Position numbers and translations under genes: made by a program | Source: Sediminispirochaeta bajacaliforniensis DSM 16054 | GTDB taxonomy: Bacteria > Spirochaetota > Spirochaetia > DSM-16054 > Sediminispirochaetaceae | DNA: 64,000 nt | Reading direction: 5' to 3' | Assembly (NCBI RefSeq): GCF_000378205.1 | Contig: NZ_KB899419.1 | Location: forward strand, 62,001 to 126,000 | Part shown: in pieces, positions 1 through 14,204 of the stretch | How positions within the stretch are numbered: the first letter of the stretch is position 1 | Layout: every line of letters starts with the position of its first letter | The notes under the pieces: generated by a model | Databases searched by the model: none | What the model was told of the DNA's origin: nothing | Seen by the model: only the letters and a program-made list of their open reading frames with translations

Positions 1-1
1 A

Positions 2-424
2 GAATGGGTGGTCGAGCCTGTTTATGATAATCTTCCGAATGCTGTCTGGGGCATGACAAAGAAAGGGGATGCACTCCTTAAAAATGTAGCTGTGGGGCTT
101 CGTCTTTATCCGAAGGAACATCAGACAAGCATATTCCCCAAAACGGGCTTTATCGATCTAAACCGGTTATCCGTATATTCGTGCATTGAAAGGACATTTA
201 CCTTCAACCCCACATGGCAACTGCCACCTTACAGCCAGGAAGATGCCATTGAAGAATTTTCCGGGACAGTCATGAAGGATGAGATAAAACATAAAAGGCA
301 TGGATGGATTGAAGGCCTCAATGCGGCCGGTTTTGATTTCGATTTTACGGTTGATCTGTCAAAAATGGCGGAAGAAGCGGATAACATATTTTCCGAGGAA
401 ATGATACTGGGGGTATTGCTGTGA
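2..424 (+). CDS. Unrecognised protein, 3' part only (accessory locus gene 1)
   Basis: The reading frame is open to the left window edge (codons before position 8 read Glu-Trp), so this is the C-terminal ~141 residues of a longer protein. I do not recognise it. The visible part is soluble, rich in aromatic residues, and ends in an acidic helix-like stretch. The stop overlaps the GTG start of the next gene by four bases (GTGA), which indicates an operon with translational coupling. It is the first visible member of the accessory operon that continues to 11,532. Its function cannot be judged from this fragment. Confidence 0.65.
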   Translation, partial: EWVVEPVYDNLPNAVWGMTKKGDALLKNVAVGLRLYPKEHQTSIFPKTGFIDLNRLSVYSCIERTFTFNPTWQLPPYSQEDAIEEFSGTVMKDEIKHKRHGWIEGLNAAGFDFDFTVDLSKMAEEADNIFSEEMILGVLL

Positions 425-1707
425 GTGACAAAAACGAATGCTTTAAAATGATGAAGGCATATCTTCCACCCCTGAAAAACGGAGAGTATACCGTTGAGGC
501 TATACAGAATGTGACAGCTCCAGAATCTGACTCCTATCATGCGCAAATGGATTTTTGTGTAAAAGGAGCCCATTTTTCCGTTCCCGAGGAAGAAATACAT
601 TCCCTTTATCCTCATGTAAACGCATGCGGAAACTATGGAACTTCAATGGCGCATATAACATTCAAAAATAAAAGCTATCCCTGGGAGATGTCGGAACGGC
701 CATGGTTCGCGCTCATCTGCCTTTCAGATGACGAGTTCGAATCAGAGCAGGAAATTGCCATCAAGGATTTGTTCAACTGTCCCAACGATACATTTTATCC
801 GCTTAAAAGCATGCCGGCTTGTACGGAAAAACCGGAAGACGGCTGCACGATTCTGGATTTGCCCGCTGATCTCTATGAGGCTGTTATGCCCAGAGAAAGT
901 GAAGCAGAACTTCTTGCCCATGTAAAAATAGTTGATCTCTATGATACGTCAGATGACCTTGTATCTCATGACGGATATTTTTCAGTGATTGTTTCCAATC
1001 GTTTCATTCCGTCAGGAAAAGAGGATTTCAAAAAAAACACCATGCATCTTGTTTCACTGGAAGGCTATGACGGATATCTTCCGGAAGGGGCAAGGTATTC
1101 AGCGCTAAAGCCCTATGCAAAGATACGCCTTGTGTCATTGTACAGCTGGAGTGTTTTTTCCACGGAAAAGGGGGATGCGGATTTTTGCAATATCATTACC
1201 AGTATCCAGAGTGGACCGCTTGCCCTGTCTGCGACCGAACTCCTGAAGCGTGGAAAGATTCCTCTTTATCATGTAACAAGAACAGGTGAGAAGACGGTTT
1301 CCTTATATCGCGGGCCGCTGATCCCGTATCCGGCAAAAAAGACGGAACAAATAACAAAACAAACAGCGGACGGCTGGATTATCTATGATCCGGAACACGG
1401 TATTATGGATTTGTCGTATGCCGCAGCCTGGCAATTAGGCCGTCTTTTGATTCTGAAAAACAAGGCTATGGCGGCCGCGCTTCTTGCATGGAAAAAGCAG
1501 GGTATGCGGCAATTCCATATAGAGGCAAACAAGATAGTCTTTCAAAATAAAATGCGTCTCGGTTTGAAGGCGGAACAGGGTGATATTGTTGATTATTGCG
1601 CGCACAAGCTTTTCAAACAGTTGCTGGAAGATGAACTGGTTGCGCCGTTGTCAACAGCCAGCGGATCGCCCAAAACTGATGTAAGAGAGAGTAAAGAAGG
1701 AAAGTAA
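421..1707 (+). CDS. Conserved protein of unknown function, 428 aa (accessory locus gene 2)
   Basis: The GTG start at 421 overlaps the stop of gene 1. The product is a soluble 428-residue protein without a signal peptide or membrane segment. I cannot name a family. Two stretches look strongly conserved in character: RTGEKTVSLYRGPLIPYP (about residues 290-307) and LSYAAAWQLGRLL (about 342-354). From memory, unverified, similarly patterned proteins occur as hypotheticals in large loci of actinobacteria and myxobacteria, so this is probably a widespread but uncharacterised family. The ending is charged and rich in Ser/Thr. It is cotranscribed with the neighbours (2-base gap to the next gene). No catalytic motif is evident. 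Confidence 0.8.
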   Translation: MSDKNECFKMMKAYLPPLKNGEYTVEAIQNVTAPESDSYHAQMDFCVKGAHFSVPEEEIHSLYPHVNACGNYGTSMAHITFKNKSYPWEMSERPWFALICLSDDEFESEQEIAIKDLFNCPNDTFYPLKSMPACTEKPEDGCTILDLPADLYEAVMPRESEAELLAHVKIVDLYDTSDDLVSHDGYFSVIVSNRFIPSGKEDFKKNTMHLVSLEGYDGYLPEGARYSALKPYAKIRLVSLYSWSVFSTEKGDADFCNIITSIQSGPLALSATELLKRGKIPLYHVTRTGEKTVSLYRGPLIPYPAKKTEQITKQTADGWIIYDPEHGIMDLSYAAAWQLGRLLILKNKAMAAALLAWKKQGMRQFHIEANKIVFQNKMRLGLKAEQGDIVDYCAHKLFKQLLEDELVAPLSTASGSPKTDVRESKEGK

Positions 1708-1709
1708 AC

Positions 1710-2570
1710 ATGAAAAGCTGGAGATCTGAAAAATCAGCGTTCAAAATTTCTGAAGTCACTGATACTACCTCTCTGCCAATTCCTGAGCAGCTTAGTAACT
1801 GGCTGGGAGAGCTTATTTTACTTGGAGAAGTCCCGCTGGCCTATCTGGTCTCAGACGAGAGAGAGCTGCCGATGGAATCTATACGTTTTTTTGTTGTTGA
1901 TCCACTGTGGACACAGGCGCTGGTTGAGGGAGCGACCAGTATCGGCATCTCGACAAAGGATGAGGCCCTTTACTCCGCTAAAAATCTGCCACGTCAGTAT
2001 ATGAATGCAAAAAAAAGTATCCGTATACCACGGTTTTCAAAGATGCACCCGAATCATAGACGTAAAAATGTACCGCTGACGGCAGACAGTAATTCGGTGC
2101 TGTCCGGATTTTTTATGCGATCTGATCTGGTTTCAAACTGGAAAGGAATTGAGGTAAAGGGATTTTATGAAGATGCGCCAAGGGACATTCTTCGGATGGA
2201 AAAACTTTCGGACAAGCTGCTTATCTGCATTTTTGAAGGAGAAATTGATGTGGTAAAAATGTATGAACCAAAAGAGGCCCTGCATTTTGGCACCAGGGGC
2301 CTGGACCGAAAAATGGATATACGAAGAGTTGACGAAGGACATGAAGGTGAACCTTTATACCAGGCCGGGACAAAGAAAAAAGTAAGCCTAACCGTACCAA
2401 CGGAGAGCAACGGAAGAGTCAGAATATCGGAACTAAGGAAATCTTTGGCAAAGGCTCTTGATATAGACGCAAACACTATCGAATCTCCCCAGCTGGCTTT
2501 GGAAATGCTTTCAGTAGCCGGAGAATGTGAATTTAAATATGGAGGGAATTCCAATAACTATAAACTTTGA
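1710..2570 (+). CDS. Conserved protein of unknown function, 286 aa (accessory locus gene 3)
   Basis: ATG start at 1710 behind an AAGGAAAG ribosome site. No signal peptide. Near the N-terminus is the pattern PIPEQLSNWLGELILLGEVP, then ESIRFFVVDPLWTQALVEGA (about residues 56-75). A middle segment reads SGFFMRSDLVSNWKGIEVKG (about 131-150), followed by a hydrophobic LLICIFEG. I have seen this combination in unannotated proteins of other phyla but cannot attach a function or a Pfam name. The gene lies two bases after gene 2 and its stop region overlaps the possible upstream TTG of gene 4. A structural or scaffold role is a guess based only on the lack of enzyme motifs. Confidence 0.8.
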   Translation: MKSWRSEKSAFKISEVTDTTSLPIPEQLSNWLGELILLGEVPLAYLVSDERELPMESIRFFVVDPLWTQALVEGATSIGISTKDEALYSAKNLPRQYMNAKKSIRIPRFSKMHPNHRRKNVPLTADSNSVLSGFFMRSDLVSNWKGIEVKGFYEDAPRDILRMEKLSDKLLICIFEGEIDVVKMYEPKEALHFGTRGLDRKMDIRRVDEGHEGEPLYQAGTKKKVSLTVPTESNGRVRISELRKSLAKALDIDANTIESPQLALEMLSVAGECEFKYGGNSNNYKL

Positions 2571-2602
2571 AAGTTGTGGTTATAAAACATAAGGAAAATG
2601 AA

Positions 2603-5600
2603 ATGAGTATTCTGTTTGTCCCCATGGCAATAGAGGCTTATATGACAAATAACGAAAACAGCAAGCAAAAAGAGATAGCTTCCATTGCACCGGATTATAC
2701 AAAACTGAAAAATAAAACTCAGCTGGGCGGAAAACTGGAGCCCAGGGCATTTGAGACTTCCGTTCCGCTGGAAGCCGGCGTTCATTTGCATTTTATTCTT
2801 CCCGATGCTTTGACTCATGCCGTTACTCTGGAAGAGGGAAGTTTGAAGTATCCGCGTGTACCCAACCGCTGGCTGGTTACAAGGCTTTTCACAGGCAGTA
2901 AGATACAAAGTAAAAGCTGGATAGTTGAAAGCGACTATCTGGGGCTTGATAATAAAAACAGTGTAACAGTTCCTTTCTTATCGGATAAGGATTTTCCCTA
3001 TCGATTCATTGGCCGCTCTTACCCCACAGAGGAATCGCCCGCAGCAGGAGACACGTATCTTGAAGAACTGACGGCCATCGGGCCTGGAGATTCAAGTTTT
3101 GCAGCATACTATCCGAGTTGCCGCACTGTTTTCGGCTTTCATGACAAGCTGGAAGACGTTGCTTCCGGTGACCTGACCTATTTTGTAATGGGATATTATG
3201 CGGATGAAAAAAATGACCCTTTATATCACCTCAGCGAGGGGGAATACAATCAATATGTGACGGAGAATTGCTGGTCCGTGTCAGGACCTCAGGCTGAGAA
3301 GATGATCTGTCATGGCATGGTCCACACAGTGCCGTGGCGGGGAGTAAAGGCTGAGTATCCTTCGAACACACCGACAGGTGAAATTAATATAGCGATAGGA
3401 AATACTTCCGTTGAGGCATTGTCCTCCCTGATAGCAAACCAGTTGTGCGATGAGAAAAAGGATGTTCTGGAGCGTTTTTTGACAATGATGCAATATGACT
3501 TGTTACATTATTCTGAAGGCATTGATGCTGTGGCAGAGGTTGAAAACCACATTCATGCCAAAGAATTTGAGCCGGAAGAAGGGGGATCCCTATGGCATAT
3601 TCGCCTGAAGGGCACGGATAATGATGAATCTGGGCCGAAAGTGAGAATCCCAAAGGGTACAGGCACACAACTTACCCTGCTTAACAAGGCCCAGGCCGAT
3701 TATGACGGTCTTTGTTATGCGCTCCAATCAGAAAGACAGCGCTTGTTCAGCAGCTGGCAGCGATATGTAAGAAGGATTGAAGAGCCTCCGGCTCCATGGG
3801 AAAAAACAACGCCCTCAAAAGAAGACATTGAAAAAGAAATCAGGCGTTTATGCGATACCATTGACAAGCTAAAAAGCAATATTGAGGACGCTGAGCATGA
3901 TGTAAAAAAAGCTGAAAAGGCACTTGAAGACATTATTGCACCGGTAAAGGACAGAATAATTCTGGAAAAAGCGGTTAGGGAGCCGTTTTATCATGCAAAG
4001 CCTCCTGTCTTATTATTCGGTGGCGCCGGTATCAGCCGTCAGTATGCCTATGGTGAAGACGGACGCTTTGCAAAAGACGGCACGCTCTTGTGCAGAACAT
4101 CTTTGATTGAGGGCCTGGACGGAACGGACCTGTGTCTGGAGGAAAAGGATATTTTATCGTATTGCGATATATCAGAAAATTTACCCCCGGAATATAAGGA
4201 CCTCTTTTGCGAAGTCGTCTGCCTAAGTCCTGATCTATTGGCCGAGATTGAGAAAAAAAAAGGCGTACAAGAGTTGAACGCCAGGGGGCTGGCGCCTTCA
4301 CCCATTGGATATGCCCCATGGCGGCAGCCCTGGATTTCACTGTTTATGGAATGGAGTATGATATGGTCGCCTACAAGAACCTCAATCCAGCCTGAGAACT
4401 CTTTTAATGGGTGGCAGTTTTCCGATATGGACTATGAATATTCAGGTAATCCTCCGACACCGGAAACTAGCTATACCGGACGAACGATCCTGACTCCTCA
4501 TTCGACTTTGCTCCTTGAGTACGTGTTTAAAAAGAATATAGAGCGTTATAAATCAGATGAACAACTGTACAAAAAGCTGAAAGAAACAGTCGAAAAGACC
4601 AAAGATCTGGCGATTTTGTCACAACAATTAAGCGGATTATGGACACAGTTCCTCTCTCTGGAGGAAACCTTACAGCTGCCTATTATTGAAAAAGATGATG
4701 ACGCTGACGTTACCAGAGAGATTATTCCCAGGATGGAAGATGCATTGCCTATGACGCTTGCCTTCGATATTCCATTCTATCCGATAAGGGCTGGGTTTTT
4801 ACGGGTAAATAATGTGAATATTGTCAATTCTTTCGGTATTCGCCAGCGTGTCGCCTCAACCCTCAAAAAAACCTTCTTCTCCGAAGAATTGCTTCATGAT
4901 ATTGAAGGTAAGGGGATGTTTCCTCCCCGTTTTATCCAGGGGGCCAGGCTCAATTTTGACTGGATTAGCAGTGATGATCCTGATATTGTCAGCTGTATCG
5001 ATCCTTCAACCTCGCCGGTATGTTGCTTTCTATATCCTGATTTTCTGAATCATGCCCTGTCGGTATATGAATCGAACGGTCTGTTTAAGGGAAGATTAAA
5101 ACTGGTATACCGCGAATCACTTCCAGAGGTTCGCTGGGGCAGCGCTCCGGGAGAAGCGTCCGATTTTGAAAGTGTATCGTTTCAATGTGAACACACGAGA
5201 AAGTTTTTAAAGGCGCTGCTTCAGTATAACGACAACAAAGACCCTGCCTTTTACGGGTTCATGTATGTTATTGAAAAGAAGATGGCGGCAATCTGTACAT
5301 ACAGTGATTGCCAGGATATTTTTGCCTTATGGAGCCGCCCGCTGGTGCTGGCAAGAGCGAGACTGTCACTGGATATATTGGGAGAACCAGCATATTCCGA
5401 AAAATCCGAAGATTTCGGAAAGAAACAGAGCTACGGTTATGAAAAAACAGAAGTCCCAATTTTTATTGGCGATAGTTCATGTTCAAGGGATGGGGCATTG
5501 GGATTTTTCCCTGATTCGGAAGATCCGTATAAAACGATGCATTGCATATACAAAACTGAAAAAATACCAGTTGCAACCGATTATTTAAACTATGATTCCG

Positions 5601-5962
5601 GGCTTTGTGTATCACCTGCAAGGAATTCGGATACATGTTTTTCACTTCTTATGGAAGCCGGATCTGAAGCGGTCTTTAGATCCGGAATACTTCCGTCATG
5701 TAAACGAAGCATTTTGCCTGAGCATGTAGAAAAGGTCCTTTCAACACTGGATTTCTCATTTGAGGTTACTCCGATCATCACTGATATGGATACTATTCGT
5801 TTGCCTCTTTTTTCAAAAGAAAATACAAGCTGGACATGGTATCGGCGGGAACAAGAGGCTTATTCTGATGCAGGCCCTGTCAGCGAACCAAGGAATGTAT
5901 TTGCAGACACAAATCCGGTGTATCTCGAAGGATTTTTAAAGCGAAGGGAGCAGGAAAAATGA
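2603..5962 (+). CDS. Large protein of unknown function, ~1,119 aa, with coiled coils (accessory locus gene 4)
   Basis: I prefer the ATG at 2603 over an upstream TTG at 2567 because AAGGAAAA sits just before it. The large soluble protein starts MSILFVPMAIEAYM and has no signal peptide. Notable stretches are LHFILPDALTHA (about residue 62), VPNRWLVTR (about 87), a predicted heptad helix at about 404-450 rich in Lys and Glu, a short LLFGGAG motif (about 468) and a second helical segment at about 650-680. A Trp/Pro-rich section (about 575-640) includes GRTILTPHSTLLLEY. No nuclease, protease or nucleotide-binding motif is convincing. The stop overlaps the next start by four bases. It is the largest member of the locus and likely its scaffold or main structural component, which is inference. 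Confidence 0.8.
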   Translation: MSILFVPMAIEAYMTNNENSKQKEIASIAPDYTKLKNKTQLGGKLEPRAFETSVPLEAGVHLHFILPDALTHAVTLEEGSLKYPRVPNRWLVTRLFTGSKIQSKSWIVESDYLGLDNKNSVTVPFLSDKDFPYRFIGRSYPTEESPAAGDTYLEELTAIGPGDSSFAAYYPSCRTVFGFHDKLEDVASGDLTYFVMGYYADEKNDPLYHLSEGEYNQYVTENCWSVSGPQAEKMICHGMVHTVPWRGVKAEYPSNTPTGEINIAIGNTSVEALSSLIANQLCDEKKDVLERFLTMMQYDLLHYSEGIDAVAEVENHIHAKEFEPEEGGSLWHIRLKGTDNDESGPKVRIPKGTGTQLTLLNKAQADYDGLCYALQSERQRLFSSWQRYVRRIEEPPAPWEKTTPSKEDIEKEIRRLCDTIDKLKSNIEDAEHDVKKAEKALEDIIAPVKDRIILEKAVREPFYHAKPPVLLFGGAGISRQYAYGEDGRFAKDGTLLCRTSLIEGLDGTDLCLEEKDILSYCDISENLPPEYKDLFCEVVCLSPDLLAEIEKKKGVQELNARGLAPSPIGYAPWRQPWISLFMEWSMIWSPTRTSIQPENSFNGWQFSDMDYEYSGNPPTPETSYTGRTILTPHSTLLLEYVFKKNIERYKSDEQLYKKLKETVEKTKDLAILSQQLSGLWTQFLSLEETLQLPIIEKDDDADVTREIIPRMEDALPMTLAFDIPFYPIRAGFLRVNNVNIVNSFGIRQRVASTLKKTFFSEELLHDIEGKGMFPPRFIQGARLNFDWISSDDPDIVSCIDPSTSPVCCFLYPDFLNHALSVYESNGLFKGRLKLVYRESLPEVRWGSAPGEASDFESVSFQCEHTRKFLKALLQYNDNKDPAFYGFMYVIEKKMAAICTYSDCQDIFALWSRPLVLARARLSLDILGEPAYSEKSEDFGKKQSYGYEKTEVPIFIGDSSCSRDGALGFFPDSEDPYKTMHCIYKTEKIPVATDYLNYDSGLCVSPARNSDTCFSLLMEAGSEAVFRSGILPSCKRSILPEHVEKVLSTLDFSFEVTPIITDMDTIRLPLFSKENTSWTWYRREQEAYSDAGPVSEPRNVFADTNPVYLEGFLKRREQEK

Positions 5963-7752
5963 GCGCTTCTGACTATATTATCAAATGCAGCATAACTCCT
6001 CCGCAGCTTGTATATATTCATGAAAGAACCTTAGACAATGAGTTCTGCATTGAGTTCGAAAAGGTTCCTGTGGCTTATGGCCATAATGACGCGGAAGCTA
6101 TTAAGGATACGAGTTTTATTAAGGAAGAACGATCGGGTGCGGCAATTTATATCAAACTTGGCCTGGGCGATGAAATCGATGACTTATGTACTGCCGAGCT
6201 TGCCGCACAGCTAAGTTTTACAACACTTGAGGGCGACGGCTGGGAAATGGAGTGGTCTGCCATAAATAAATGTTTTATTATTTATCCGCCGGATGATTTC
6301 AATTTTCCGGATTCATATCGCGCTTCTTTCAGAAGTAACGGATTTTACACAGAGGCAAAAGAGGGCGCTGCGACACTTGAAGCATATGTTGTAAATTTTC
6401 CTGATGTAAGCACAAAAATAGTGGCAGTAAACATCTACAAACGCTATCCGATTGCGTTTGACTATTTTAGGGCGGAACCAGAGCCTGTTGAGATTGGCGG
6501 TGAGACAACACTTTCATGGCGCGTGCTTAACGTAAAAAAGTGTTACATCGATGATATCGGCCAGGTTGATACCGAAGGTTCCATGAACGTGACCATTGAT
6601 TCCCCAAAGAACTTTCTTCTAAAGGCTGAAAACGATATGGGGATAACTGATCAGACTGAAAAGAAGGTTGGCTGCGTGAAGCCTTCCATTCAGTTCTCAG
6701 CGGATTCAACCTGGTATCATGAAGGAGAAGAGGTGACACTGCGCTGGGAGGGTACCTCTGCCGTGTCGGTACAGATTAGTCCGGCTCCTGGAGAAGTTCC
6801 TGTTTCTGGGAGCAAAAAGGTGGTCCCTCACTCGCCAACCTTTACGGCCACAGCCAGCGGCTTTGACGGATTTACCCCCTATGCGGCCATGGCCTCTTTG
6901 ACACTGAAAAAAACTCCCTGGAAATGTGAAGGCACGATAGCTGGCGTCGATTTGTCAAAGGACACCATGAATACTGGCAGGAGAATTTGGGAGTATAAGG
7001 GGAAAAGTTATGTATTTTGCAACCGAATTTTGTATGAAAGCGAGGATGTATTACATTGGCAGCAAACGGCGAAATTCGAACTGTATGATGGCATGATCCT
7101 CAAAAGCTGCGCAACCACAGTTGTCGGTGATACTTTTTTGGTGCTTGGCATAAAAAACAAGAACTCGACATTTGTTCAGTCGGCAACCTATGATTTTTCC
7201 CAAAGGAAATGGCAGATAACTGATGCCTTGCCGGATGGCGACGATACTGGCGGAATACTTTCAGGCATACATGATCAGCCTTATTATGCGCATCCCGAGG
7301 GGCCGATGGTTCTGTTTTATACCCCGGAGGAGATGATGGGGGGAAAATGGAATCTGGTTTTTTATCTTAAATACCCTGATGTGGATGCATGCGATATAAG
7401 CCCTTTACGGGAATATCTGTATGCAGGTCTGCATGACGGCCGGGAGCATCAGCTTGTGATAAGGCGTATCAAGCCTAAAGACAGGCAGTGGCTTGATGTA
7501 GGTCGGCTTGAGGTGGCAGACGATGAGTGGTTTTGCCTGGTCCCGACAAAGGGAAAACTTTTTCTGCTTACAGCAGAACAGATGCTCTGCGTGGATGATT
7601 TGGAATCTGTATCACCCTTTCATCCGGAACTGGATAAGGATTATCGCCCATGGACCGGAAGTAAAAACAACATGCCGTTTCTTGTAACAAAGAGCGGCGT
7701 TTTATGGTGTTTAAAAAATTATATTAAGGAAGGAAAAGATGAGTTACCCTGA
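5959..7752 (+). CDS. Protein with two Ig-like domains and a C-terminal propeller-like region (accessory locus gene 5)
   Basis: 597 residues, ATGA overlap with gene 4 and an AGGAAAA ribosome site. The N-terminal ~160 residues are unassigned. Two beta-sandwich repeats follow: the first centred on EPVEIGGETTLSWRV (about residues 174-188), the second on EGEEVTLRWEG (about 254-264). Both have the G-E-x-x-T-L-x-W pattern of bacterial Ig-like folds. The last ~270 residues contain repeated short beta segments such as YESEDVLHWQQ, typical of BNR/kelch-type propellers. No signal peptide is visible, so if the protein is exported it uses another route. Such domains usually bind proteins or sugars; here that is inference. 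The end overlaps gene 6 by 14 bases. Confidence 0.8.
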   Translation: MSASDYIIKCSITPPQLVYIHERTLDNEFCIEFEKVPVAYGHNDAEAIKDTSFIKEERSGAAIYIKLGLGDEIDDLCTAELAAQLSFTTLEGDGWEMEWSAINKCFIIYPPDDFNFPDSYRASFRSNGFYTEAKEGAATLEAYVVNFPDVSTKIVAVNIYKRYPIAFDYFRAEPEPVEIGGETTLSWRVLNVKKCYIDDIGQVDTEGSMNVTIDSPKNFLLKAENDMGITDQTEKKVGCVKPSIQFSADSTWYHEGEEVTLRWEGTSAVSVQISPAPGEVPVSGSKKVVPHSPTFTATASGFDGFTPYAAMASLTLKKTPWKCEGTIAGVDLSKDTMNTGRRIWEYKGKSYVFCNRILYESEDVLHWQQTAKFELYDGMILKSCATTVVGDTFLVLGIKNKNSTFVQSATYDFSQRKWQITDALPDGDDTGGILSGIHDQPYYAHPEGPMVLFYTPEEMMGGKWNLVFYLKYPDVDACDISPLREYLYAGLHDGREHQLVIRRIKPKDRQWLDVGRLEVADDEWFCLVPTKGKLFLLTAEQMLCVDDLESVSPFHPELDKDYRPWTGSKNNMPFLVTKSGVLWCLKNYIKEGKDELP

Positions 7753-8401
7753 TATCACTATTAGCAAAATGTGTCCGCTGATTATACAGGATGCTGATTA
7801 TTGCAGACAGTATGGCTGTGCCACACTGGAACGTGGAGGACGTATTGAAATCCTTGTGGATTGTTCTTTCGGAATAAAAAAACTGGTAAAGGAAGATGAT
7901 GGTGAGGTTAATGACAATCCCGATATCATTTTGAAGGGGTTTGACGGGAGTATTGGAAGCCCCGGTCAAAGCGGAGAAGACGGAGGCGCGGGAGCGAAAG
8001 CGGAAATCATTATAGACGATCTTCAGAGTTCGCTGAACGTGCATGTTTATGGTGGCGGCAGTGGAGGCCAGGGGGGCCGTGGAGGAGACGGTGGCTCCGG
8101 CGGAGACGGGGCTTACGGTGCTGACGGCGGCGATGGCGGAGACGGCGGAGACGGAGCATGCGGCGGGACCGGCGGCAGCGGAGGAGAGCTGATCATAAAA
8201 TATAAAACGAGCAACGCGAGTAAAATAACTGGAAAGGAATTAAGCTCATGTGGAGGAGAGGCCGGAAGAGCCGGTTCTGGCGGCGCCGGAGGCCATGGGG
8301 AACATGACGGACGGACCGGCAGAAAAGGGCGTAAAGGCGAGAACGGTCAGGACGGCGGCAGGGGAAAACTTACTATTATAAAAACAAAAGAGGAGGCATA
8401 G
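7739..8401 (+). CDS. Collagen-like Gly-X-Y repeat protein (accessory locus gene 6)
   Basis: 220 residues. The ATG at 7739 lies inside the end of gene 5 with AAGGAAGG eight bases upstream. The N-terminal ~65 residues (Cys at 11, 22, 27 and 41 or nearby) are unassigned. Glycine then recurs at every third residue in three blocks, about 67-86, 105-150 and 172-212, with triplets such as GGD, GGS, GAD, KGR and KGE. The blocks are separated by short beta-like strands (AEIIIDDLQ; GELIIKYKT). Unlike classical bacterial collagens it has very little proline, so a stable triple helix is uncertain; a polyglycine-II bundle is an alternative. The protein ends in a basic tail. It is probably a fibrous or spacer component. 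Confidence 0.85.
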   Translation: MSYPDITISKMCPLIIQDADYCRQYGCATLERGGRIEILVDCSFGIKKLVKEDDGEVNDNPDIILKGFDGSIGSPGQSGEDGGAGAKAEIIIDDLQSSLNVHVYGGGSGGQGGRGGDGGSGGDGAYGADGGDGGDGGDGACGGTGGSGGELIIKYKTSNASKITGKELSSCGGEAGRAGSGGAGGHGEHDGRTGRKGRKGENGQDGGRGKLTIIKTKEEA

Positions 8402-8404
8402 TGT

Positions 8405-10057
8405 ATGGATTATCAGGCTGGAAAATATGTATCAAGAGTTCTGGATTTTTCAGATCCGAAAGACGCAAAAAAGGTCCTTGACAAACTTGGGGGCGAGGAT
8501 TTTTTAAAGAAAGAATATCCAAAGGTATATCAATCGTACCTTAAAACTGTAGCAAAACATAAAAGGGTAAAAAAAACTGAGAAAGAGGCCGCTGACGGGC
8601 TTCAAAGCGGGGCCTTTGCGGGAGCAATTTCGATTGCGGCAAGTAATAATAAAGTAAAAAAAAATCAGCTTGATGGAACTGAAGAAGGTCTGATAAGCGG
8701 CGCGACATCAGTTCAGGGACATACCGACTGGAGCAGGGCCATCGTTTCAGGGCATATGAAAAACCTGACACAGGACACTATCATTCATACATTTTTCAGA
8801 AAACTTTCTAATGAAAATTATTATGAGACCGTTCAGCATCGGGATGTTAAGGATATTGCTTCCTTTGGAGAGCAAAGGATACAGAATTTTATTGAAAGCA
8901 CAGCTATCCTGAAAGAAGACGGAACCATGGAAAGTCTTGAAGCATATAGCGATGAATTTACAACAAAGGGGAGCGCCTCAGCTGTCGTGTATATGAACCT
9001 TAAGGCCCCGAGATCAAATGTGGGAAATAATCCGATTATCATGATGTACGCGAGAAGCCCGGATCACGGAGAAACCGTTGATTATAATTACCCTAATAAT
9101 AAGATTATCTCGGGAACGGACAGCGTCAAAACAATCTTTCCTGTAAAGGGAACGATAACATTTAGCGACGATTTTAAACCTCTAAGGTATAGTACAAAAA
9201 GCTCGAGCCATACACCGGAGCTACAGTACAAAGGAAAAGGCGTCTGCCCCTATAGTTATACCCAGGAACAAATAGCCTCCTGTTTTAGAATATCGGAGGA
9301 CAATCCGCAGGTAGTGGAATTTGAGCTAAATGAAGACTGGAATCACAACCTTGATATAAGCGACTATACTTCAGCCCATGATGCGGATATTGCGCTTTTG
9401 TTTTCGTTCTTTTTCACGGTTCAAATTGCAGGTTTTAAAAAAGAACAGGATGTAGGAATTTGTATTTATTCCACAAACACATTGGAAATGGGGCAACGTT
9501 ATTATGAGTCGGCAGATGATACGAATCTTTGTTTGCCGTATGTGTATATTAAGTGGGGCTGTTTTTCAAAAGATACCCTGGTTTCCATGGCTGATGGAAG
9601 TCTAATGGCTGTCACCGAAATCCAACAGGGAGCTCAGGTAATGAGTGAGAATGGGGAAATACTCACTGTAAGGGATGTAGTCTCTGGTGACGAAGAAGAA
9701 CTTTACTGTATACGCACAAAAGGACAAAAGCTTATTCGACTAAGCGCTACGCATCCTCTTAAAACAACAGAAGGCCCTGTCCGGGCACAAGATCTAAGGC
9801 CTGGAATGGCATTGCTCTGTCAGGATGGTACGGAAGATGAGATTCTTTTTAATTATACGGTGCCTTATAATGACAAGGTATACAGTCTGATCACCGAGGG
9901 CAAAGGGCAATGGCTTGCGGCTAACGGAATATGGGCCGGCGATTTTGACAGTCAGAATAATTTTGTGCTGTCTTCCAAAGGTGAGGAACCATTAAGCGCT
10001 GAAGTACAGGAACTTACAGAAGAGTTTGACAGGCTGATAGAGCATTTGCAAAAATGA
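8405..10057 (+). CDS. Protein with a C-terminal Hint (hedgehog/intein) domain (accessory locus gene 7)
   Basis: 550 residues, ATG at 8405 with AGGAGG eight bases upstream. Residues 1-385 are unassigned and without a signal peptide; a Gly/Ala-rich segment lies around 65-80. A Hint domain starts at Cys386 (CFSKDTLVSMADGS, the block A pattern), carries block B with His450 (RLSATHPL), and ends at about 505-513 with LAANGIWAGD. In splicing inteins the last block ends in His-Asn followed by Cys, Ser or Thr; here Gly-Asp is followed by Phe, so splicing is unlikely while N-terminal thioester cleavage at Cys386 stays possible. A 37-residue tail ends the protein. Its stop overlaps the MBL gene (ATGA). 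Confidence 0.88.
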   Translation: MDYQAGKYVSRVLDFSDPKDAKKVLDKLGGEDFLKKEYPKVYQSYLKTVAKHKRVKKTEKEAADGLQSGAFAGAISIAASNNKVKKNQLDGTEEGLISGATSVQGHTDWSRAIVSGHMKNLTQDTIIHTFFRKLSNENYYETVQHRDVKDIASFGEQRIQNFIESTAILKEDGTMESLEAYSDEFTTKGSASAVVYMNLKAPRSNVGNNPIIMMYARSPDHGETVDYNYPNNKIISGTDSVKTIFPVKGTITFSDDFKPLRYSTKSSSHTPELQYKGKGVCPYSYTQEQIASCFRISEDNPQVVEFELNEDWNHNLDISDYTSAHDADIALLFSFFFTVQIAGFKKEQDVGICIYSTNTLEMGQRYYESADDTNLCLPYVYIKWGCFSKDTLVSMADGSLMAVTEIQQGAQVMSENGEILTVRDVVSGDEEELYCIRTKGQKLIRLSATHPLKTTEGPVRAQDLRPGMALLCQDGTEDEILFNYTVPYNDKVYSLITEGKGQWLAANGIWAGDFDSQNNFVLSSKGEEPLSAEVQELTEEFDRLIEHLQK

Positions 10058-11532
10058 ACAATAGTAAAAATGACCAGTATTGGAGCTGTACCGCATATGC
10101 CTCCAGGTATGTGTACGAAGATGAAGGGAAAATGCGAAGCGGCATTGAGTTCGAGGCTATAAAAGCGGAAAAGGTTTCCGCCTTTTTGAGACGGGATAGG
10201 GAGGCACTGAAACACACTGATGATGAAAATTTTGCTTTTCTCCTTGATCACTATCTGGAACACGGGACGGAAGGGGAGCTCTTCTATGAGAAAAAGCTTG
10301 AGCATTTCGGGGACGGGGAGGCCATATATTACATTACCGTCTGGTTTGATGTCCCCGCGGAAGCAAAGCAGTTTGAATTAAACAGCTGGTACCGGATTGA
10401 AAAAGGCATCAGTTTTGCCTGCGTCTTGGAGCCTTTTATACCGGTTGATGTACCTGAGCCTTCAACATGCATGATTTCAAAAATAGATCAGGAAGACAGC
10501 AGAACGCTTGAGAAACTCTTTGCTATAAAGAATTCTGAAGGAATAGATTCTTCTGCCGACTCTGATGGCGGAATGCTAAAAACAATTTCAGCCGAAGCTC
10601 GTTTTTGGGGAGCGGCGTTTTATTATGTCGGTGCTGCCTTATGTGTCGGATTACATTCGGCAAGGCTTTCCAAAGGATTAGATATCTGGGTACCCAATTG
10701 CATCGAGGGCTATTTTGATTTCGGATTCAATGATGTAGAAAGAGGTAATGCCCATGTTAGGGCGAATTTTCCCTATGCCGCTGCCAATCTTGAGAACATC
10801 AAGGAGGAGCTGCGACAACGTCCTGCCAAAGTTATTATTATCTCCCATTGGCATGCGGATCATATCAGTATTGCCAGACATCTCTTTTTACCAGAGTATA
10901 ATCCCTTTTGGCAATGGTCCAGATGGTATGTGCCTGAAGAGTCCTCACCTGTGCCTATTCTTATAGCCAGGAAGATCAGGGGAAGTGGAGCGTGTATGAC
11001 GGTATTAAAGAATGTGTTCCCGGCAGATAATACTGTTTATCAAATAGATAAGAATCCCTATCTGGCTTACGGTAAAATTGATGCCTTTAATCCTGTAAAT
11101 GAAAGGGGGCGTCCCAGCAAGGATGGACAACATGCTCACCATCACGGAATTTATGCGAAAATCCAACTTGTTGATATAAGCGGAAATTTTTTTAGATCAC
11201 TGCTTTTAGCAGGAGATTGCACGTATTCGGGGATTCCGATAGCCCAGAAAAAGGTTCACTATCTGCAGGCCTGTCATCATGGCGGTGAATATGCTCTGCC
11301 TCCTTCCACTGGAGACAGAAAACAACACCTTCCTGTGCCTGCCGATAAAAACGGCACTGTAATTTATTCGGCAAATGGATCAAGGCATGGACATCCAAAT
11401 CCTGCCATTATGCAGGAACATGCTGAAAAAGGATGGATAGCCGAGTACAGGACAGATTACTCTGTTATTGACAATGGGGACAGGTCCCATACAGAAGGAA
11501 GATGGTCTGTCACGTATGGGGAAGTTCTTTAG
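10054..11532 (+). CDS. ComEC-like metallo-beta-lactamase-fold hydrolase with unusual N-terminal half (accessory locus gene 8)
   Basis: 492 residues. The C-terminal ~270 residues have the MBL fold: SHWHADH (His265, His267, Asp269, His270), a later LLLAGDC metal-ligand strand, CHHGGEYALP, and ANGSRHGHPNP. The last two elements match the MBL domain of ComEC/Rec2 DNA-uptake proteins and of stand-alone relatives. No ComEC membrane domain is present. The N-terminal ~200 residues are not recognised. A nuclease or phosphoesterase activity is plausible from the family; the substrate is unknown. It is the last gene of the accessory operon and ends three bases from the convergent operon. The ribosome site is weak, consistent with coupling to gene 7 through the ATGA overlap. 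Confidence 0.85.
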   Translation: MNNSKNDQYWSCTAYASRYVYEDEGKMRSGIEFEAIKAEKVSAFLRRDREALKHTDDENFAFLLDHYLEHGTEGELFYEKKLEHFGDGEAIYYITVWFDVPAEAKQFELNSWYRIEKGISFACVLEPFIPVDVPEPSTCMISKIDQEDSRTLEKLFAIKNSEGIDSSADSDGGMLKTISAEARFWGAAFYYVGAALCVGLHSARLSKGLDIWVPNCIEGYFDFGFNDVERGNAHVRANFPYAAANLENIKEELRQRPAKVIIISHWHADHISIARHLFLPEYNPFWQWSRWYVPEESSPVPILIARKIRGSGACMTVLKNVFPADNTVYQIDKNPYLAYGKIDAFNPVNERGRPSKDGQHAHHHGIYAKIQLVDISGNFFRSLLLAGDCTYSGIPIAQKKVHYLQACHHGGEYALPPSTGDRKQHLPVPADKNGTVIYSANGSRHGHPNPAIMQEHAEKGWIAEYRTDYSVIDNGDRSHTEGRWSVTYGEVL

Positions 11533-11535
11533 TAT

Positions 11536-11907
11536 TCAGCAGAACTCGGCCCATGTCAAAAACAAACGTTTTCCAGCATTGGGTTCTTCGGTTCTGAATC
11601 GATAAGCAACCAGCCATCCCATGGTGTTTCTATCCAGAACAAGACAGAGTTCCTGCTTTTTGGAGAATGGCCTTTTTTTGAGCCGGTACCTGTATCTTTT
11701 TTGTCTGAGCAGAATGAAACGAATCATGGAATAGCATACAGGCACAATCAGTTCCAGTTTATTCAGGCCAAGATAGTGTACAGGAAAAATCGTGTTTTTA
11801 AACTGGTCCGACTGCGATAGTCTGCAATGAAGGCCCTCAACGCTTTTCAGCACCGGGAAAAGTATAAGACGAATCAGGATCTCAATATTATCATCCGGCG
11901 GCGCCAT
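11536..11907 (-). CDS. Small protein of unknown function, third gene of the DUF2589-like operon
   Basis: 123 residues, ATG four bases after the stop of the DUF2589-like gene upstream, so clearly part of that operon. I do not recognise it. It has a central stretch FPVHYLGLNKLELIVPV that recalls the VSVPLLAL...PL segment of the two preceding proteins, then a strongly basic section (RQKRYRYRLKKRPFSKK) and no signal peptide. It may be a shortened or diverged relative of the neighbours, which would need a profile comparison. It ends three bases from the convergent MBL gene, leaving no room for a separate bidirectional terminator. Confidence 0.6.
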   Translation of the reverse strand: MAPPDDNIEILIRLILFPVLKSVEGLHCRLSQSDQFKNTIFPVHYLGLNKLELIVPVCYSMIRFILLRQKRYRYRLKKRPFSKKQELCLVLDRNTMGWLVAYRFRTEEPNAGKRLFLTWAEFC

Positions 11908-11911
11908 CTGC

Positions 11912-12463
11912 TTATTTTACTGTTATGGCGGTTAATGAAGATTCCACTATCATTTTAAGCGCTTCCGTTGGTTCGGCCCCGGAGGCTTCAATCCTGATAT
12001 TGAGTTTTCCGCGCTCGGAATAGCTATTTTTCCTTGTTGTGTTCTGGCTAAGGCTGCCTGAAAGACTGAGATCTACAAAAGAACTCAGTACTCCGCCCAC
12101 GCTGGCGTTCCCTTTAAGGCTTCCGTCTGTCTGCTGAGTCTCATCCTGAAGGGTGGACACATCAAACGTAAACTCGTTAACAACCTTGTTAATATTTAGA
12201 AGCGGCGGCTGAACCAGGGCCAGCAACGGGACGGATACCGTGACCTTTTTCGTGGCACCGTTTTCATCTGTAAAATCAAAATCAAGCTTTTGAGGCTCAG
12301 TTTCAGCGTATTTCTTGATGGTCTCAAGATTCATCTTTGAAAGTTCGGCATGCGCCTTGGCTGCCGCTATCAGCGGATCTCCTATAAGCTTTGAGAGAGG
12401 CAGGGAACGTAAAGCCTTTGTAGTTTTTGAGACATCTTTTGGTACTGGTGATGTATCAGACAT
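11912..12463 (-). CDS. DUF2589-like protein, copy 2
   Basis: 183 residues, ATG at 12463 with AAGGAG behind it, overlapping the end of the upstream paralogue by 8 bases. The N-terminal LPLSKLIGDPLIAAAKAHAEL resembles the helical opening of DUF2589 proteins (S-L-x-x-L-I-G-x-P-L). A beta-rich middle follows with VTVSVPLLALVQPPLLNI (about residues 73-90) and a C-terminal strand region with many Ser/Thr. The VSVP-L-LAL-x-x-PL-x-I segment is shared with the next protein, which shows common descent. The function of DUF2589 is unknown to me. Family assignment is from memory and should be checked by profile search. Confidence 0.75.
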   Translation of the reverse strand: MSDTSPVPKDVSKTTKALRSLPLSKLIGDPLIAAAKAHAELSKMNLETIKKYAETEPQKLDFDFTDENGATKKVTVSVPLLALVQPPLLNINKVVNEFTFDVSTLQDETQQTDGSLKGNASVGGVLSSFVDLSLSGSLSQNTTRKNSYSERGKLNIRIEASGAEPTEALKMIVESSLTAITVK

Positions 12464-13067
12464 TTTCTACTCCTTGATCATCAAGCGGTTCAGCAATACT
12501 AAACTCGCTCAGTGCATTAATATATGTTCCCAAGGCATCGGGAACATCAATTGACCCAATATTAATCTTGACCCCTATAAAGCCGCAGTCGCTTTTTTCG
12601 TTTTCATTTCTGATTTCTCCGATAAAGCTCTTTGGCTCTTCCACCAGAAACCAAGGACGTTTGCCCGCATGCCATTTATTTTTGTCTTTGGTCCTCATTT
12701 CCTCTTCGGTTCCGATCCCGAAGATTTTTTCAGGCTCAATACTGGTAATCTTCATTTTAAAGTCAATTTGCGCATCATGGATCATGAGGGGATTCATGGG
12801 AAGAGCCGCGAGGGTGGGAACGCTTACCCGGTATTTTTTTATTTCTCCATTGATTTCACGTTCCTGAATAAACTCAAGCCGGTACAGATTATCCGATTTG
12901 TTTTCATCATTTAGTATATTGCCTTCATCATCAAGCCCCTGATGTCCAAATCCCATTTGAAGGATAGAACTGAGAAAAGAACGGGAGGCGTGTATTTGAG
13001 CCTTTATAATGGAATCTACCGACGCAAGAATTGCTTGTGCAAGCGAAAGCTTTGTATAATCTGCCAT
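12456..13067 (-). CDS. DUF2589-like protein, copy 1 (first gene of operon)
   Basis: I place the start at the ATG at 13067 (MADYTKLSLAQAIL): AGGAG lies at the proper distance, while the longer frame to 13130 would cover the promoter. This gives 203 residues. N-terminal helix with LAQAILASVDSIIKAQIHAS, then a beta region with YRVSVPTLAALPMNPLMI (about residues 80-97) that aligns with copy 2. A distinct insert mentions KNKWHAGKRPWFLVEEP, followed by an acidic C-terminus. The two genes are tandem paralogues on the strand opposite to the large accessory operon. A partner role for that operon is suggested only by their position. Confidence 0.75.
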   Translation of the reverse strand: MADYTKLSLAQAILASVDSIIKAQIHASRSFLSSILQMGFGHQGLDDEGNILNDENKSDNLYRLEFIQEREINGEIKKYRVSVPTLAALPMNPLMIHDAQIDFKMKITSIEPEKIFGIGTEEEMRTKDKNKWHAGKRPWFLVEEPKSFIGEIRNENEKSDCGFIGVKINIGSIDVPDALGTYINALSEFSIAEPLDDQGVENV

Positions 13068-13107
13068 CATGCTCTCCTGATTTTTAAATTTTTCTATGAT
13101 TGCTATT

Positions 13108-13135
13108 ATTATACATGTTCGATAGGACAAAGCAA
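13108..13135 (-). promoter_or_regulatory. Sigma-70-type promoter for the DUF2589-like operon
   Basis: Read on the minus strand, TTGCTT (13135-13130) and a perfect TATAAT (13113-13108) are separated by 16 bases. Transcription would start near 13,100, leaving a leader of about 35 bases before the ATG at 13067. It supports the shorter start of the first DUF2589-like gene. Confidence 0.55.
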
Positions 13136-14131: not shown

Positions 14132-14204
14132 TGGGCGATGAGGGACTTGAACCCCCGACATCCTGCTTGTAAGGCAGGCGCTCTCCCAGCTGAGCTAATC
14201 GCCC
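14132..14204 (-). tRNA. tRNA-Val (anticodon TAC)
   Basis: Reading the minus strand, the acceptor arms GGGCGAT and ATCGCCC pair over seven bases, the D-arm contains GCTCAGCTGGGAGAGC, the anticodon loop is CTTACAA (anticodon TAC, valine), and the T-arm contains GTTCAAG. The length is 73 bases with A as discriminator; the CCA end is not encoded. All invariant positions I checked are present. Its 3' end faces the accessory region, which is the usual orientation for island integration into tRNA genes. Confidence 0.97.

Follow-up and report, generated by a model that had tools for sequence, protein, structure and literature searches.

A bacterial C-terminal Hint domain with a family-wide Gly-Asp end, likely to release or pass on the N-terminal part of its protein

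Splicing inteins end in His-Asn followed by Cys, Ser or Thr, and in their active centre the last Asn sits close to Cys1. In Hedgehog and Hog proteins, a C-terminal Hint domain is followed by a short region and the N-terminal part is the cargo; the Hedgehog junction reads Gly-Cys-Phe. Pretoxin HINT domains (PF07591) precede a C-terminal toxin. BILs of types A and B share the Hint fold and keep Cys1 and block B but have no +1 nucleophile. A-type BILs end in His-Asn; B-type BILs, which show no similarity in block G, cleave without splicing (PMC4031507, PMC7765530). Reviews locate BILs within hypervariable parts of non-conserved proteins. The residues required for thioester formation and for splicing steps 2 and 3 have been assigned their roles (PMC4031507). 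BIL2 of Tetrahymena BUBL1, a eukaryotic domain with ubiquitin-like flanks and an Asn end (seen in the construct name C1A-N143A), carries out thioester chemistry at its N-flank (PMC8616854). Finally, Bürglin (2008), citing Dassa and Pietrokovski, listed an uncharacterised bacterial subgroup of C-terminal Hints (Myxococcus xanthus MXAN_6253, Photorhabdus plu1731 and proteins of Serratia, Yersinia, Reinekea and Stigmatella) that share an upstream region and two conserved upstream cysteines, some with signal peptides (PMC2362128).

We analysed a 64,000-nucleotide stretch (the window) of the Sediminispirochaeta bajacaliforniensis DSM 16054 genome, in which an intact gene encodes a 550-residue protein that ends in a Hint domain and a short tail. 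Its features are as follows (a slash marks the junction).

8405–10057, + strand: whole gene, 550 residues comprising N-terminal domain, Hint domain and tail
8405–9559, + strand: N-terminal part, residues 1–385, a helical start and then a beta-rich domain
9539–9562, + strand: junction strand YVYIKWG/C, residues 379–386, with the predicted scissile bond Gly385-Cys386
9560–9943, + strand: Hint domain, residues 386–513, with blocks A, B and F and a G-D block G
9560–9562, + strand: Cys386 (C1), block A nucleophile, invariant in the family
9743–9754, + strand: block B, Ser447-Ala-Thr-His450, the His invariant and position B:7 always Thr or Ser in the family
9923–9955, + strand: block G, Asn507-Gly-Ile-Trp-Ala-Gly512-Asp513-Phe-Asp-Ser-Gln517, in which an invariant G-D-x3-Q replaces His-Asn-(Cys/Ser/Thr)
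9944–10054, + strand: C-terminal tail, residues 514–550, 37 residues

Cys386 is encoded by TGT with its first base at 9560, His450 by CAT at 9752–9754 and Gly512-Asp513 by GGCGAT at 9938–9943, and the gene stops at TGA (10055–10057); the sequence at the Hint end reads ANGIWAGDFDSQ. A first-pass annotation had proposed a Hint domain with a retained Cys386 and a TxxH-type His450, ending in Ala-Gly-Asp-Phe rather than His-Asn-Cys/Ser/Thr. The cysteine and the Ala-Gly-Asp-Phe end are exactly as it described; for block B, the His is present, but Ser447 occupies the Thr position, making the motif SxxH. The protein is encoded once in its genome, and no signal peptide was recognisable by eye.

Several profile matches place the 3' end of the gene among Hint domains. 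Pfam Hom_end_hint matched just under its threshold (E 4.7e-7, 30.5 bits against a cut-off of 32.1), Vint (1.8e-4) and Hint_2 (2.1e-4) fell below their curated cut-offs, Pretoxin HINT matched weakly (E 0.021), and NCBIfam intein_Nterm also matched below its own cut-off; thus, no model in these collections covers this Hint subfamily at its own threshold. A profile of the family matched the PDB sequences of a solved BIL and several intein chains at about 1e-9. AlphaFold2 modelling of residues 378–550 from five aligned sequences gave one high-scoring model of five (85.5, the next 65.6), with pLDDT 93–96 over most of the Hint core and pTM 0.76, and this good model describes the domain alone rather than its junction within the full-length protein. 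Foldseek comparison with the PDB matched the model to structures of BILs, inteins and Hedgehog, with E values from 1.6e-12 to 1e-8. The best match was BUBL1 BIL2 (6tmm, 6y75; E 1.6e-12), slightly ahead of ordinary inteins; the gp41-1 intein was also matched, with an rmsd of 1.9 across about 130 columns, the Clostridium thermocellum BIL 2lwy was among the top matches, and Hedgehog 1at0 and 6tyy came lower in the list. Together with the block A Cys and the block B (T/S)xxH motif, the predicted fold identifies residues 386–513 as a member of the Hint (Hedgehog/intein) superfamily. By the Pfam, profile, AlphaFold2 and Foldseek results, the likeness to Hint domains exceeds chance.

We collected homologues, at least nine of them distinct, which represent Spirochaetota, Bacillota, Actinomycetota and Proteobacteria as well as one viral contig. 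Their sources are plasmids and genomes of Azospirillum, Embleya, Tistrella, Pseudoalteromonas, Emergencia timonensis (with two copies), genome G037 of the window's own class, three more genomes from the class of Azospirillum and a single IMG/VR contig. The family is rare, occurring in 2 of 395 genomes of the window's class. Scans of viral contigs with three queries (the Hint part by itself, the alignment of full-length proteins and the N-terminal part) yielded nothing, and neither did the phage collection. Every member has Cys1, Thr or Ser at B:7, His at B:10 and the block G sequence G-D-x3-Q. His-Asn is absent throughout, and the +1 residue after Gly-Asp is Phe, Tyr, Asn, Leu or Glu, never Cys, Ser or Thr. 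In a maximum-likelihood tree with 28 other bacterial Hints, the family Hints formed one clade (support 100/99), a clade of 18 that includes three long-branched extra rows. Among close homologues, dN/dS in the Hint part was mostly 0.1–0.5, indicating purifying selection. We considered a decayed intein and rejected it: since the Gly-Asp end is invariant, the non-splicing end is a family trait and not decay. The domain is a distinct form, and a distinct clade, within a known kind of domain, in which the splicing residues have been lost family-wide; the combination proposed initially, with thioester residues kept and splicing residues absent, is conserved in the family.

The N-terminal part, which had been called unknown, is a domain common to most members of the family. 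It matches no family in Pfam, NCBIfam or PHROGs, and a sequence-profile search of the PDB found no significant relative of it. Alignments of 8 and 9 homologues show a helical start (LDFSDP...LGGEDF...YP) and then a beta-rich domain, whose conserved core, R-x(n)-DY-x(n)-P-x2-G, lies at about residues 203–249. A full-length AlphaFold2 model built from four sequences was unusable (pLDDT 37). The strand entering the junction is recognisable in relatives as well (e.g., IQFVWG/C, IVFVWH/C and MQFVWS/C). Past the Hint domain, the tail has predicted helices at 514–524 and 532–549, at low confidence in the AlphaFold2 model; no Pfam match was found within its 37 residues and no sterol-recognition region was detected after the Hint of the window protein. 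Tails are about 32–50 residues long in most relatives and much shorter in two (L106 and L043).

Set against the described systems, the window Hint ends in Gly512-Asp513-Phe514, unlike the His-Asn and Cys/Ser/Thr of splicing inteins, and its invariant Gly-Asp likewise separates it from A-type BILs. Its block G fits B-type BILs by sequence, a likeness drawn by description only, and, unlike BILs in general, it stands C-terminal to a domain found across phyla. BUBL1 BIL2 is its best structural match, yet differs in its Asn end, eukaryotic host and ubiquitin-like flanks. Hedgehog and Hog proteins share its fold and layout at 15–16% identity, and the Hedgehog catalytic Asp occupies a different place in the fold from Asp513. 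With only 37 residues after the Hint, there is no C-terminal toxin of the Pretoxin HINT kind. By description, it is plausible that the family corresponds to the subgroup of Bürglin (2008): three secreted-looking relatives (L054, L106 and L108) carry a C-L-x-R...C-D-Y pattern that fits its two upstream cysteines, whereas the window protein lacks both these cysteines and a signal peptide. In the literature searched, we found no earlier description of the invariant G-D-x3-Q end or of contractile-injection neighbourhoods, and nothing usable on Hint domains with contractile injection or DUF6603, or on plu1731 and MXAN_6253.

We lean towards reading residues 386–513 as an autoprocessing Hint, belonging to a distinct bacterial clade, whose action would be confined to its N-terminal junction, with an external nucleophile resolving the thioester. 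Cys386, aided by His450 and Ser447, would replace the peptide bond Gly385-Cys386 by a thioester through an N-S acyl shift. Because the domain has neither a +1 nucleophile nor His-Asn, a branched intermediate and Asn cyclisation should be impossible, and an external nucleophile would be needed; speculatively, water would be the usual acceptor. The net outcome would be separation of residues 1–385 from the Hint and tail, so that the domain probably releases or passes on the N-terminal part. Asp513 sits at the position of an intein's last Asn, which leads us to suggest, again speculatively, that it orients or deprotonates the incoming nucleophile. We infer thioester formation and cleavage from the known chemistry of the Hint family, and N-terminal cleavage is favoured because blocks A and B are kept, those residues that splicing needs at steps 2 and 3 are absent and B-type BILs cleave without splicing. 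Splicing itself is unlikely, as Gly replaces the penultimate His, no +1 nucleophile is present and the downstream tail is mostly kept.

The thioester might instead be transferred to a partner's amine or alcohol (protein lysine, lipid or glycan), comparable to cholesterol in Hedgehog or a substrate lysine in BUBL1 BIL2, with the tail serving like an adduct-recognition region. The arrangement of N-terminal cargo, C-terminal Hint and short tail resembles Hog proteins (Hint plus SRR/ARR; PMC2362128), and for BUBL1 BIL2, the nearest solved fold, conjugation of the N-flanking ubiquitin-like domain with lysines has been reported (PMC8616854). The window junction also reads Gly-Cys-Phe, as in Hedgehog, which we take as a lead only. 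Foldseek, however, barely separates BIL2 from ordinary inteins, and the tail is far shorter in L106 and L043; we consider ligation unlikely. Loss of catalysis, with the Hint retained for folding or binding, appears more doubtful still. The Asp usual in block F of inteins is missing, position 4 being Ser in the window protein and Asn in most relatives; in the other bacterial Hints compared, this position is usually Asn. Against a dead domain, Cys1, Thr/Ser and His persist in every member even though relatives share only 22–39% Hint identity with the window protein, and the remaining cysteines are not conserved family-wide; in an Azospirillum relative of 558 residues (L003), the Hint Cys is the sole cysteine of the protein. 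Action at the C-terminal end, by Asp513 cyclisation freeing the 37-residue tail or by slow splicing with a terminal Asp, is very improbable: Asp513 is invariant, and some inteins have Asp, Glu or Gln as their last residue (PMC4031507), so that an Asp alone would be no bar to C-terminal cleavage, but Gly512 stands in for the penultimate His, no +1 nucleophile follows, a Gln is conserved four residues past the Asp and most members keep the tail.

The Hint gene lies in a packed + strand array of ORFs spanning 8 to 11532, with the following surroundings.

421–1707, + strand: upstream gene of the array
1710–2570, + strand: upstream gene of the array
2567–5962, + strand: upstream gene of the array, 1131 residues
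5959–7752, + strand: upstream gene of the array
7739–8401, + strand: short Gly-rich collagen-like protein, directly upstream of the Hint gene
10054–11532, + strand: downstream overlapping gene, metallo-beta-lactamase-fold-like with an HWHADH motif (Lactamase_B at E 0.011, short of the Pfam cut-off)
11912–13130, − strand: two adjacent DUF2589 genes
14132–14204: tRNA-Val, near the Hint array

The genes at 421–1707 and 1710–2570 correspond to the beginning and the end of single proteins, about 700 residues long, on Streptomyces and Paenibacillus plasmids, and the window version looks split in two. For the 2567–5962 protein, which has no Pfam match, relatives of 976–1151 residues occur on plasmids of Paenibacillus and Streptomyces, and Embleya has matches too. 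DUF6603 genes adjoin the Paenibacillus polymyxa and Streptomyces examples of this plasmid cluster (two cases). No Hint relative was found in the plasmid cluster, and no plasmid relatives of the 10054–11532 gene were found. A search for a conserved neighbourhood of the Hint gene found neighbours common to Tistrella and Embleya only. Elsewhere, an Azospirillum relative (L004:13211-17631) has genes for a halogenase, a LodA/GoxA-type oxidase and a ferritin-like protein as neighbours, and a laminin-G-domain protein of 1005 residues comes after the second Emergencia Hint copy (L055:10115-13129). G+C content is 0.446 over 1–13130 against about 0.49 in the remaining window, and this region with the tRNA-Val is a possible genomic island. 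Genes for V-type ATPase and 7TMR-HD proteins suggested a Spirochaetota origin.

Two relatives (L106 and L108) adjoin contractile-injection genes, whereas the window gene does not. The Hint gene of the IMG/VR relative is oriented divergently to a contractile injection cluster with tube-like and sheath-like genes, and the G037 Hint protein begins with a lipoprotein-like signal and has a baseplate-hub gene after it. The hub gene beside the lipoprotein-like Hint gene (L108:2047-3726) is extended at its C-terminal end by about 200 residues and is followed by an amidase-like frame. The window's genome has a separate contractile injection system on another contig (C32; L092/L093), with sheath, two tube, AAA ATPase, hub and baseplate J genes. 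Within the window's class, the tube family PF06841 occurs in both genomes with the Hint family (2/2) and in 1 of 24 controls; it is absent from the Emergencia, Azospirillum and three Tistrella-like genomes that bear the family. The proposal that every member of the family is part of a contractile injection system was therefore not upheld, and the association holds in some lineages without being a defining feature; we treat it as a lead only.

Non-splicing bacterial Hints are poorly understood, and this compact family provides a concrete test case, with one invariant change from His-Asn to Gly-Asp, a common cargo domain and occasional proximity to contractile-injection genes. It bears on whether bacteria perform Hedgehog-like ligation. 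A prokaryotic Hedgehog-like system, in which a Hint with Asp for Asn would move its beta-rich cargo onto a partner without ATP, the tail picking the acceptor and the partner possibly being a surface or contractile-injection component, strikes us as improbable. If the domain performs hydrolysis only, it would be a maturation device; if ligation proves true, it would represent a new route of protein modification.
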